42,816 nt of DNA from a virus. Position 1 is the first letter of the stretch. Each line of letters opens with the position of its first letter. Made by a program: the position numbers and the translations under genes. Where the stretch lies: the IMG/VR virus record IMGVR_UViG_3300018059_000020, positions 1 through 42,816 of that record; one strand, 5' to 3'. The notes under the pieces are model-generated. The model ran no database searches. It saw only the letters and a list, made by a program, of their open reading frames with translations, and was not told the DNA's origin. This document shows positions 23,850 through 42,816 of this stretch, one piece after another.

Positions 23850-24443
23850 ATGTCGATGGTGGAGCTGAAAATAGACGATCGCGAATGCCTCCGGGTGCTC
23901 GATAAGATCGCCCGCAAGGGGCGCGACGCCTCGCCGCTCATGGTCGCCATCGAAGGTGACATGCTCGATGCCGTCGAGGAGAACTTCAGGCAGGAAGGGC
24001 GGCCGAAATGGGCGGACCTGCGCCCCCGCACAAAAAAGGCGAGGGAGAAAAAAGGGCACTGGCCCGGCCAAATCCTCCAGGTAAAGGGGATACTGGCCAA
24101 ATCCGTCCAGGGCAGACACGACAGCCACAGCGTAATTGTCGGCACCAACGACAAGCGCGCCAAGCTGCTCCACTTCGGCGGCGAAGTCGCCCACGGCGCA
24201 CGGGAACGGACGCTTCACTTTAAGCAGGTAAACAGGGGGAAGATTACCCGAGCGGCGCAAAACGAAAAAGGGCGACTGGAGGGAGGAGACCTCTTTTCAA
24301 AAAAGAAAGGAAGCCACTACGGCATGAAGGTCCAGGGCAAAGCCTACACAGTGAAGATCAAGGGGCGGCCGTTCATGACCATGCAGCCTGCCGACATCGC
24401 CAAGATCAAGCGGCACGGCCTCCAATTTCTGGCCGACTTGTAG
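23850..24443 (+). CDS. G-like virion morphogenesis protein (Mu gp31, tail completion)
   Basis: A 197-aa protein. Family marks: VAIEGDMLDAVEENFRQEGR, WADLRPRTKKAREKKG, GHWPGQILQVKGILAKSVQG, VGTNDKRAKLLHFGGEV and the C-terminal RPFMTMQPADIAKIK. Mu gpG and its relatives (P2 gpS) complete tails or join them to heads. A palindrome upstream supplies GGAGGGG as ribosome site, 9 bases before the ATG. Confidence 0.9.
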   Translation: MSMVELKIDDRECLRVLDKIARKGRDASPLMVAIEGDMLDAVEENFRQEGRPKWADLRPRTKKAREKKGHWPGQILQVKGILAKSVQGRHDSHSVIVGTNDKRAKLLHFGGEVAHGARERTLHFKQVNRGKITRAAQNEKGRLEGGDLFSKKKGSHYGMKVQGKAYTVKIKGRPFMTMQPADIAKIKRHGLQFLADL

Positions 24444-24697: not shown

Positions 24698-25999
24698 ATG
24701 GCGACACTCAAAACAAACGAACCGATGGAAGGCGCCTGGATCGAAGCGTTCAAGGTCGGCACCTGGACCGACAGCGCCGGATATACTTCTCCCTGGCCGC
24801 CGGACCGGATTGATGCCTTATTGGCCAAGTATAATCCGAGTTTCCACACCGCCCCGATTCGTATCGACCACATCGAACCCCTCCAGCGCAAGGGTCGCGG
24901 CCCGGCATTCGGCTGGATCGCCGCAGCCAGGCGCGACGGTGATCGGGTCATGGTCAAGCTTTCCCAGGTGCAGCCCCAGTTCGAAGAGTGGGTCCGTTCC
25001 GGCATGTTAAAGGCCCGCTCCATCGCCTGGGACCAGGATAAAGGTATTCATCACCTGGCATTCCTCGGCTACAACTGCCCGGCGATACCGGGGATGGAAA
25101 ACGTCTACGACGACGGCGACAACGTCGTCACTATTCAATTCAAGGAAGGAGGCAGCATGACCAAGGAAAACGAGAAGAACCCCCTGAAGCGAGCATTTGC
25201 GGCGTTCATGCAGTTCATGAGCGGCGGGGCAAAGGAGCGGTCGCAGTTCTGCGCCGACTGCAAGGACAACGTCTGCGTGTCCTGCTGCCCCACCGGAGCC
25301 GTCAGCATGACCGCAGACAAGGGAGCGATCATCGACCCTGCCAAATGTACAGTCTGTTACGCCTGCAGCCGGGCCTGCTGCATGATGCGCGACCCGGTCC
25401 AAGGGATGGAAGTAGCCAACTATAACGATAAGGAGACGGAGATGAAAATTGAAGAAGTCGAAGCCGTTGTCGCCAAAGCAGTCGGAGCGGCAATCAAGCA
25501 GTTCAGCGACCAGCTGGCAGTATTCTCGGAAGAGAACAAGGGGCTGAAAACAGAGCTCACCGGTCTGCGCAAGCAGTTCAGCGACTCTGCGGCCGACGGC
25601 GATCGCCGGGAGTTCACGGCATTCTGCGCCTCTCTTCCCACGCGGATCGCCCCGGCCCAGATCCCCGCCCTCGTTGCCCACATGCAGACGCTGAAGGGCG
25701 CTGAGCCGGTCGAGTTCGACGACGGCAAGGGAAACAAGATCACGAAGAGCCAGCTGGAGATGTACCAGGAGAGCCTCAAAGCCCTTCCGCAAACGATCCA
25801 GCTGAGCGAATTCGCCACAGGAGATCGGGTCGGCAACCGCAAGACCGTCACGGTAGATACCGGGGAGTTCGGCGACGGGCAAGTGGACGAGGATCGTTTA
25901 CAGCTCCACAGCGACGTCCTGGCATACCAGGAAGCCCACGCCGGCACGTCCTACGATACCGCCCTCACGGCCGTCATGTCAAAGAAAGGGGGGAACTGA
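24698..25999 (+). CDS. Prohead protease/scaffold (Mu I/Z type) with an inserted ferredoxin-like domain
   Basis: A 433-aa protein. Residues 1-150: Mu I-like prohead protease, with PAFGWIAAARRDG and KARSIAWDQDKGIHHLAFLG (candidate catalytic Ser108). Residues 183-230: C-x2-C-x4-C-x3-C-P (Cys 185, 188, 193, 197) then C-x2-C-x2-C-x3-C (217, 220, 223, 227), the two-[4Fe-4S] pattern of DmsB/NrfC-type ferredoxins with VSMTADKGAIIDPAKC between. Residues 249-433: helical scaffold (Z-like). Good internal ribosome sites precede Met154 and Met249, so shorter products are likely. The scaffold shapes the procapsid and is then removed; what a cluster does there is unknown. Confidence 0.9.
   Translation: MATLKTNEPMEGAWIEAFKVGTWTDSAGYTSPWPPDRIDALLAKYNPSFHTAPIRIDHIEPLQRKGRGPAFGWIAAARRDGDRVMVKLSQVQPQFEEWVRSGMLKARSIAWDQDKGIHHLAFLGYNCPAIPGMENVYDDGDNVVTIQFKEGGSMTKENEKNPLKRAFAAFMQFMSGGAKERSQFCADCKDNVCVSCCPTGAVSMTADKGAIIDPAKCTVCYACSRACCMMRDPVQGMEVANYNDKETEMKIEEVEAVVAKAVGAAIKQFSDQLAVFSEENKGLKTELTGLRKQFSDSAADGDRREFTAFCASLPTRIAPAQIPALVAHMQTLKGAEPVEFDDGKGNKITKSQLEMYQESLKALPQTIQLSEFATGDRVGNRKTVTVDTGEFGDGQVDEDRLQLHSDVLAYQEAHAGTSYDTALTAVMSKKGGN
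25146..25159 (+). promoter_or_regulatory. Internal ribosome site and start for ferredoxin-scaffold product
   Basis: AAGGAGG (25146-25152) and ATG at 25157 in the frame of the protease gene. It would give a 280-aa product with the Fe-S module plus scaffold, in the way Mu Z is nested in I. Spacing is a little short (4 bases). Confidence 0.6.
25430..25444 (+). promoter_or_regulatory. Second internal ribosome site, start for scaffold without Fe-S module
   Basis: AAGGAG (25430-25435), 6 bases, ATG at 25442, in frame. It would give a 185-aa scaffold starting MKIEEVEAVVAKAVGAAIK, directly after the Fe-S module. Confidence 0.65.
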
Positions 26000-26002
26000 C
26001 CC

Positions 26003-26947
26003 ATGGGTAAAAATCAATTTGCAGATCAGCTGTCAGGCCTCCGGGTCGTAGATCCCATCCTGACCAACCTCGCCCGCGGCTACACCAATGCCGACTCCAT
26101 CGCCGACATAGCGTTTCCGATCGTCGGCGGCCTGACCCTGGAGAGCTCGGTCTATATCCTCTTCGGCAAAGAAGCCTTCCGCCTCTACAACACCGAGCGC
26201 GCCATTCGCGGCAACTCCAACCGGATCGCGCCGGGCAAGCCCAGCTCCGACAAGTACGTCATGACCGAACACGACCTCGAATACCCGATCGACTACCGCG
26301 AGGATCAGGACGCCGCCTTCGCCCTGCAGAAGTACGCCACCAACCTGGTTGTTGCCGGCATCCAGCTCCGCCGGGAAAAACTGGCGGCAGATCTCGCATG
26401 CAACCCGGCCAACTACGGTGCGGGCAACAAGCTGGCCCTGGCCGGCGACGACTGTTTCTCCGAGCCCGCCTCCGACCCGGTCGGCGTCACCCAGGACGGC
26501 GACGAAGCGCTCCGCAGTCAGATCGCCAAGCGCTCCAACATCATCATCGTCGGCGCCTCCACCCTGTCGCTCTGGAAGAAACATCCCCAGTTCCTGGCCC
26601 GGATCAAGTCCACCGAAAACAAGGTGGTCACCAAGGCCATCATCGAAGAAGTCCTGGAGAAGAAGATCGTCGTCGGCGAGATGATCTACACCGACGATGC
26701 CGGCAACGCCTTCGACATCTGGGGCGACATGATGCTCATGCTCTACCAGCCCGCCGCAGTCACCGGCCAGGAACGGACCATGTACGAGCCCTCCTACGGC
26801 TACACATTCCGCAAAAAGAACAAGCCGGTCGTCGATACCTACGTCACCAACGGCGGCAAGGTCCAGCTGATCCGGAACACCGACCTCTTCGACCTGAAGA
26901 TCGTCGGCGCCGACGCCGGTTACCTGGTCACCAATACCAAGAAATAA
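26003..26947 (+). CDS. Major capsid protein (Mu T-like)
   Basis: A 314-aa protein straight after the scaffold. It reads IADIAFPIVGGLTLESSVYI, GKEAFRLYNTERAIRGNSNR, YPIDYREDQDAAFALQKYAT and C-terminal PSYGYTFRKKNKPVVDTYVT, a layout shared with capsid proteins of B3-like transposable phages. The fold is presumably HK97-like. Position and length (Mu T: 305 aa) support it. Confidence 0.88.
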   Translation: MGKNQFADQLSGLRVVDPILTNLARGYTNADSIADIAFPIVGGLTLESSVYILFGKEAFRLYNTERAIRGNSNRIAPGKPSSDKYVMTEHDLEYPIDYREDQDAAFALQKYATNLVVAGIQLRREKLAADLACNPANYGAGNKLALAGDDCFSEPASDPVGVTQDGDEALRSQIAKRSNIIIVGASTLSLWKKHPQFLARIKSTENKVVTKAIIEEVLEKKIVVGEMIYTDDAGNAFDIWGDMMLMLYQPAAVTGQERTMYEPSYGYTFRKKNKPVVDTYVTNGGKVQLIRNTDLFDLKIVGADAGYLVTNTKK

Positions 26948-37577: not shown

Positions 37578-38147
37578 ATGGCCATTAGCAATGAACTTGC
37601 AGTCAGCCAAGCACTTGTCCAAGCTGAGCACGCTGATGATGCCTTACATGTAGCGCAAGCACTTGTCCAAGCTGAGCACGCTGATGATGCCTTACATGTA
37701 GCGCAAGCAGTGGTTCAGGTCGAATTCGGCACCCTAAAAGTCCTTGTTTCTCAGGTTGTAGTCCAAGTCGAATTCGGCGCACCGGACCAGGAACCCATGT
37801 ACATCATTACGCTACAACCCGACGGCAGCATCAACCTCGATTTCGGGCCGGGCGACGACCTGTTCAACAGCGTGGTGCTCTCCCTGGAGATCCGGAAAGG
37901 ATCATGGTGGCTCGATCCCGAGTTCGGTCTGGCGGTCCGCCCCCGCATGAAAAACAGCGCCAAAACGGCGCGCCTGTTCGAGGCAGATCTCCGCGCCGCA
38001 TTGCAGTGGCTCATAACCGCGAAGCGCGCCACGGCCGTAGTTATCGCCACAGAACGGGAGCTGCCCAGCCGGCTCAAGGCCTTCATCGAGGTTACCGGAG
38101 CCGATGGCCGGACCGTACCCTACACCAAGTTCATCGAGGTGGTTTAA
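37578..38147 (+). CDS. Baseplate protein gp46 with repeat-encoded N-terminus
   Basis: A 189-aa protein. Residues 74-189 (MYIITLQPDGSINLDFGPGD ... RKGSWWLDPEFGLAVRPR) are the gp46 (W/gp25-like) baseplate family. Residues 1-73 are repeats: QALVQAEHADDALHVA twice, then VVQVEFG twice. The repeats resemble the VVQVE tails found at the ends of some phage structural proteins. A start at 37797 without the extension is possible, but its ribosome site is weak (CAGGAA). gp46 probably forms wedge units. Confidence 0.85.
   Translation: MAISNELAVSQALVQAEHADDALHVAQALVQAEHADDALHVAQAVVQVEFGTLKVLVSQVVVQVEFGAPDQEPMYIITLQPDGSINLDFGPGDDLFNSVVLSLEIRKGSWWLDPEFGLAVRPRMKNSAKTARLFEADLRAALQWLITAKRATAVVIATERELPSRLKAFIEVTGADGRTVPYTKFIEVV
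37608..37703 (+). repeat. Perfect 48-bp tandem repeat, two copies
   Basis: Units 37608-37655 and 37656-37703 are identical, starting CAAGCACTTGTCCAAGC. 48 is a multiple of three, so the frame is kept. The beginning of a third unit (CAAGCA) follows. Confidence 0.95.
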
Positions 38148-42133: not shown

Positions 42134-42816
42134 CTATAGTTTCCGTCGGTCAATAACCCTTGCTGCTTTACCTTCTTGCCTGGGAATGCTGTTCGGCTCC
42201 ACCAGTTTTACGATAACTCCGACACCGAGCATCGACTCGATCCGCTTCTCAATCATCTCAAGAAATGCCTTTTGTCGCTTCATTTCGTCGAAGAAGATGT
42301 TTTCTGTAACCTCGATCCTCACTTCGAGCACATCCATGGCCCCCATCCGGTCAACCACCAGTTGGTAATGGGGTTCGCATCCTTCGATGGCAACCAGCAC
42401 CTCTTCGATCTGCGACGGGAAAACATTCACCCCTTTTATGATGAGCATGTCATCGCTGCGCCCCATGGTTTTTTTCATCCTCACCTGAGTCCTGCCGCAT
42501 GAGCATTTCGAGTAGTCGAGACTGGTAATGTCCCTGGTACGGTACCGGACCATCGGGAATGCCTCTTTTGTCAGGGTGGTCAGCACGAGTTCTCCGACGC
42601 TCCCCGGCGGCAATGGTTTGCAGGTTTCCGGATCAATAATTTCAGGGATAAAGGCGTCTTCAAAGATATGCATGCCGCATTTATGCCGGCACTCTCCGGC
42701 GACACCCGGCCCGATAATCTCAGAGAGGCCGTAGTTATCCGTGGCGCTTATGGAGAGCCTGCTTTCAATTTCCCTGCGCATCGCCTCTGACCAAGGCTCA
42801 CCGCCAAATAACCCTA
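42134..42816 (-). CDS. paaK: Phenylacetate-CoA ligase, C-terminal part (runs off the window)
   Basis: The frame is open from the window edge: [19 protein letters not shown], then [19 protein letters not shown], an AMP-binding signature, hinge [10 protein letters not shown], the four-Cys-like KCSCGRTQ stretch and a PaaK C-terminal domain ending [17 protein letters not shown]-like ([18 protein letters not shown]). An internal ATG at 42781 is not the true start. The enzyme joins CoA to phenylacetate using ATP; related proteins serve aromatic acid use in anaerobes. It is host DNA outside the prophage. Confidence 0.93.

Follow-up and report, generated by a model that had tools for sequence, protein, structure and literature searches.

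Gene content of the locus and the phage

The window, meaning the whole stretch of 42,816 nucleotides that was analysed (IMG/VR record IMGVR_UViG_3300018059_000020), is a Mu-like contractile-tailed phage or prophage containing genes for an S24-type repressor, a MuA-like transposase (phrog_310, 5.8e-111), a late transcriptional activator, a terminase, a portal, a minor head protein, and a tail sheath. In its head region, an uninterrupted frame at 24698..25999 (+) encodes a 433-aa protein (phrog_976) annotated as a Mu I/Z-type head protease with a predicted ferredoxin segment and a scaffold. The gene for a Mu G-like virion morphogenesis protein lies upstream (23850..24443, +; phrog_26, 1.6e-23), and the major capsid gene directly downstream (26003..26947, +; phrog_1005, 7.5e-87). 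At the right edge of the window, a C-terminal fragment of a host phenylacetate-CoA ligase (42134-42781, - strand) is 87% identical to a Desulfobacterota/Thermodesulfobacteriota genome. This fragment marks the host flank and suggests a host in that phylum, which is largely anaerobic, in agreement with the anaerobic host supposed in an earlier note on this DNA. Elsewhere in the window, a Phd/YefM-type antitoxin ORF lies near the left edge (238-471), a D12-class N6-adenine DNA methyltransferase is found at the right end of the phage (40632-41402), and a perfect 48-bp tandem repeat of 2.1 copies (37608-37709), coding ALVQAEHADDALHVAQ, sits inside a tail-region ORF (37578-38147).

The 433-aa protein has the domain order protease, eight-Cys segment, coiled-coil scaffold, and all of its features given below are on the + strand. 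The assemblin-like maturation protease domain covers aa 10-151 (24725..25150), and the Mu I kinship proposed for this part was borne out by the match of aa 8-156 to the head maturation protease family phrog_976 (2e-47). The putative catalytic residues H58 (24869-24871), S108 (25019-25021), and H119 (25052-25054) are unchanged in an alignment of 18 homologues, and the top Foldseek neighbours of the protease model are herpesvirus assemblins, albeit weak ones (E 0.008 at best), from which we infer an assemblin-type His-Ser-His triad. The Mu gpZ-like scaffold part (25442..25999) consists of a coiled coil followed by a C-terminal segment; AF2 predicted a long helix at aa 251-311, as expected of a scaffold, and this part clusters in a tree with insert-less prophage scaffolds from the host order.

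The gene order of morphogenesis protein, I/Z, and major capsid protein in a transposable phage is that of phage Mu I and Z and their transposable-phage homologues, in which protease and scaffold likewise share one frame; their internal scaffold start has a predicted counterpart here. Unlike these relatives, the present protein carries a predicted 2x[4Fe-4S] module in the linker, an additional predicted internal start, and a divergent protease domain, and its length of 433 aa compares with 373 aa for the peptidase of Chromohalobacter phage YPCBV-1.

The eight-cysteine segment and its relatives

Between protease and scaffold, the motif C185-x2-C188-x4-C193-x3-C197-P198 is followed by C217-x2-C220-x2-C223-x3-C227, giving eight Cys in dicluster spacing with VSMTADKGAIIDPAKC as the linker between the two motifs. 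The earlier note had read both Cys patterns and this linker between the Mu I-like and Z-like parts, and they were recovered exactly, in one uninterrupted frame. The interval of 25157-25441 given there for the domain does enclose it, yet it runs from start to start: the predicted 2x[4Fe-4S] core with its eight invariant Cys occupies only aa 185-227 (25250..25378), and the remainder is two linkers. Linker 1 (25157..25249) begins with the internal start MTK and includes a helix at aa 162-175 predicted by AF2 with low confidence; it is fast-evolving, with 53-70% aa identity among the three phages that carry the fusion, and MTK is nevertheless invariant. Linker 2 (25379..25441) contains MMRxPVxGMEVA, conserved in the three-phage alignment.

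When the insert (94 aa, 10 Cys) was shuffled 200,000 times, the full pattern of C-x2-C-x4-C-x3-C-P and C-x2-C-x2-C-x3-C never occurred, and a loose version appeared in none of 50,000 shuffles of the whole protein. The best NCBIfam match of the insert was the DmsB model TIGR02951 (1.4e-6), with 28.4 bits against an equivalog cut-off of 214.1, while a profile of three sequences matched Fe-S subunits solved in the PDB at 1.1e-6 to 1.5e-5, including the NrfC protein 2vpw. Comparison by hhalign with bacterial DmsB-like segments aligned all eight Cys at a probability of 99.0%, a partly circular result as the set was chosen by the Cys motif. The proposed DmsB/NrfC-type kinship is upheld by these matches, and phrog_16249, a stand-alone phage ferredoxin, also matched at 5.3e-6. 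The Fer4 profile gave a divided answer: the window segment reached 14.5-17.3 bits, under the Pfam gathering cut-off of 21.1, whereas the segment of L004, a relative described below, scored 25.7 on PF00037 and was the only relative to pass. AF2 runs on the full protein and on the insert alone, with 3-18 alignment rows, gave the insert a pLDDT of about 35-43, too low for a confident fold, and this region as a whole stayed mostly below 50.

With the electron-transfer subunits of the DmsB/NrfC/HybA type, the segment has in common motifs II and III, the Cys spacing, and a CPTGA box. It differs from them in comprising one dicluster unit (motifs II-III) instead of four motifs with 16 Cys, in its last Cys without Pro, and in the attached capsid-assembly domains. 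Stand-alone phage ferredoxins, known as auxiliary metabolic genes, are also phage-encoded, whereas in these three phages the predicted ferredoxin shares the frame of a late head gene with protease and scaffold, and the window contains no separate ferredoxin and no partner Fe-S ORF. The segment is classified as a predicted in-frame ferredoxin module of the DmsB/NrfC motif II-III type, and its eight invariant Cys and profile matches indicate that it very likely binds two [4Fe-4S] clusters.

The same fusion was found in L003 (37 kb contig, 71% protein identity) and L004 (4.3 kb contig, 69%), which were reached through capsid and terminase gene searches and both come from metagenome 3300025013, so that it is known from three sequences, all of them metagenome contigs. 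Neither the protein as a single query nor the insert by itself brought up relatives in direct searches, and a strict eight-Cys DNA pattern run over IMG/VR retrieved only L003 and L004. The count of homologues with and without the insert, as advised by the earlier note, gave the Cys motif in 3 of the 52 distinct protease-domain ORFs gathered, the other 49 being without it, and the insert was absent from homologues in about 530 genomes sampled from the host phylum and order, a set in which two phylum searches drew essentially identical genomes and the order sample overlaps the phylum sample. Neither absence from all relatives nor failure against the profiles, which the earlier note held to count against its reading, occurred, although the window segment by itself falls short of the Fer4 threshold.

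The window phage and L003 are collinear across the head module. In all three phages the eight ligand Cys are invariant and the extra C196 and C228 vary. Estimates of dN/dS (NG86, three phages) were 0.16-0.18 for the Fe-S core, 0.14-0.17 for the protease, and 0.21-0.30 for the scaffold, and purifying selection on the Fe-S core is as strong as on the protease domain. On this sequence evidence, the ferredoxin module is regarded as genuine and under selection.

Internal starts and possible roles in head assembly

Both internal starts described by the earlier note are present. The Shine-Dalgarno sequence AAGGAGG (25146..25152) precedes the ATG at 25157 with a calculated energy of -11.7 kcal/mol, the strongest in the ORF and in the top 0.5% of in-frame codon positions; the corresponding values are -11.8 in L003 and -7.4 in L004. 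The residues preceding this start differ among the three phages (KEGGS, EEDYR, EQENS), and the purine run and MTK are constant. AAGGAG (25430..25435) precedes the scaffold start at 25442 with a calculated -9.3 kcal/mol, in the top 1.2% on the same ranking. L003 and L004 likewise have a strong scaffold start, four insert-less relatives give -8.2 to -12.5 for theirs, and comparison of these sequences identifies this start as ancestral. Among the leading Shine-Dalgarno candidates of the four insert-less relatives scored, no counterpart of the 25157 start was present, although several insert-less relatives do have a Met at the equivalent position. The strength of the 25157 start in the fusions, set against these relatives, suggests that a separate Fe-S-scaffold product arrived together with the insert. 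Such a nested product is plausible, and the conserved Shine-Dalgarno sites point to probably three products: the full protease-Fe-S-scaffold, an Fe-S-scaffold from 25157, and a plain scaffold from 25442.

The reading that we prefer, at close to an even chance, is a Mu-type protease/scaffold with an in-frame, cluster-loaded Fe-S module and three products, in which the module acts as a folded junction element in the procapsid core. A 2x[4Fe-4S] module of the DmsB/NrfC type, fused in-frame into the protease-scaffold linker, would be carried into the procapsid core by the scaffold part, and there the cluster-loaded domain would sit as a folded unit between the other two parts during assembly or maturation. 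Judged from its position, this unit may alter how the scaffold interacts or when proteolytic release takes place; redox dependence would be possible and not required. In the Mu-like phage JBD30, the prohead protease cleaves the scaffold, which is thought to exit through capsomer pores (PMC11445458). Under such cleavage and exit, a folded cluster domain would be released, retained, or degraded.

As a rule, the scaffolds of capsids are transient proteins that carry no cofactor. Already on record are phage tail-tip proteins with Fe-S clusters and ferredoxins that phages encode as stand-alone genes. In the titles, abstracts, and term counts of the openly licensed literature, a ferredoxin in a phage head protease/scaffold was not found. 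As far as they are described where cited in PMC11445458, the Fe-S clusters of lambda gpL and the GTA hub also place a metal cluster within a virus morphogenesis protein, but these are single clusters in tail proteins, in contrast to a ferredoxin module in a head scaffold. A conserved module of this kind in a scaffold would connect iron-sulfur biogenesis, and possibly redox state, with the assembly of virions in anaerobes.

A redox or oxygen switch, the attractive reading put forward by the earlier note, appears unlikely. In it, oxidation or loss of the cluster would alter the activity of the protease or the scaffold and so confine head assembly or maturation to reducing conditions. The module adjoins the protease, [4Fe-4S] modules are often oxygen-sensitive, and the presumed host phylum is largely anaerobic, all of which would suit a switch; no regulatory partner was seen, and the cluster may be purely structural, as is proposed for lambda gpL and the GTA hub in the account given by PMC11445458. 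Slightly more doubtful still is the specific version in which the Fe-S-scaffold reads how reducing the host cell is and licenses proteolytic maturation, which would make it the first redox-controlled capsid scaffold.

The strong start at 25157 would yield a protease-free Fe-S-scaffold, and the variable linkers on either side of the core could hold cleavage sites, so the module might be packaged cargo: the scaffold would carry the ferredoxin into the procapsid and proteolysis would free it, with some retained in the virion for delivery to the next cell. The presumed exit of cleaved JBD30 scaffold by capsomer pores (PMC11445458) speaks against such retention, and this explanation is held to be improbable. 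An auxiliary electron carrier, in which the Fe-S-scaffold product takes part in the electron transfer of the infected host and owes its scaffold fusion to an accident of gene capture, would accord with the electron-transfer role of motif II-III modules in DmsB/NrfC and with the module's own ribosome-binding site. This is quite improbable in view of the single dicluster taken from a four-motif subunit, the late head gene position with no partner gene within the window, and the retention of the fusion without separation in three phages.

Binding of zinc or of no metal, which would make the Cys segment merely a folded spacer, is very improbable: the Fer4 score of the window under its cut-off, the missing Pro after the last Cys, and a linker that tolerates modules are in its favour, but the eight ferredoxin-spaced Cys are invariant while C196 and C228 vary, and the profile matches are specific to Fe-S subunits. 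An assembly artefact, which the earlier note had named as fatal to its reading, or a decaying chance fusion is hardly credible despite the rarity of the fusion and its confinement to metagenome contigs, and the artefact was rejected because three different contigs, about 70% identical and with collinear head modules, share the same junctions, invariant Cys, and purifying selection (core dN/dS about 0.16-0.18).

Origin of the fusion and the linker as an apparent insertion site

In the scaffold tree, a single clade (99/96) unites the three fusions, adjoining insert-less prophages of the host order in genomes G413 and G457. In the protease tree, the branch that they share with a remnant in G475 is very long (1.8 changes per site), and along it H58, S108, and H119 are retained; the protease was either swapped or fast-evolving. 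Taken together, the two trees indicate that the fusion joined an ordinary scaffold to a divergent protease and a ferredoxin. The G475 prophage (G475:C27; L103/L121) shares this divergent type of protease (E 1.3e-82), and its frame changes directly after the protease part, near a transposase-like ORF, as either a prophage remnant or a rearrangement, so that it is uninformative on the insert. Capture of the module from a host ferredoxin is likely; a search of host ferredoxins for the donor gave weak best matches of about 30 bits.

Genome G137 carries two prophage copies (L077 and L090, with ORFs of 472 and 506 aa) in which the protease-scaffold linker contains DUF6582 (PF20223, 5e-17), showing that this junction accepts modules. 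The protease-scaffold junction of Mu-like phages therefore looks like a general insertion site, a linker that accepts foreign modules, a predicted Fe-S module here and DUF6582 elsewhere.
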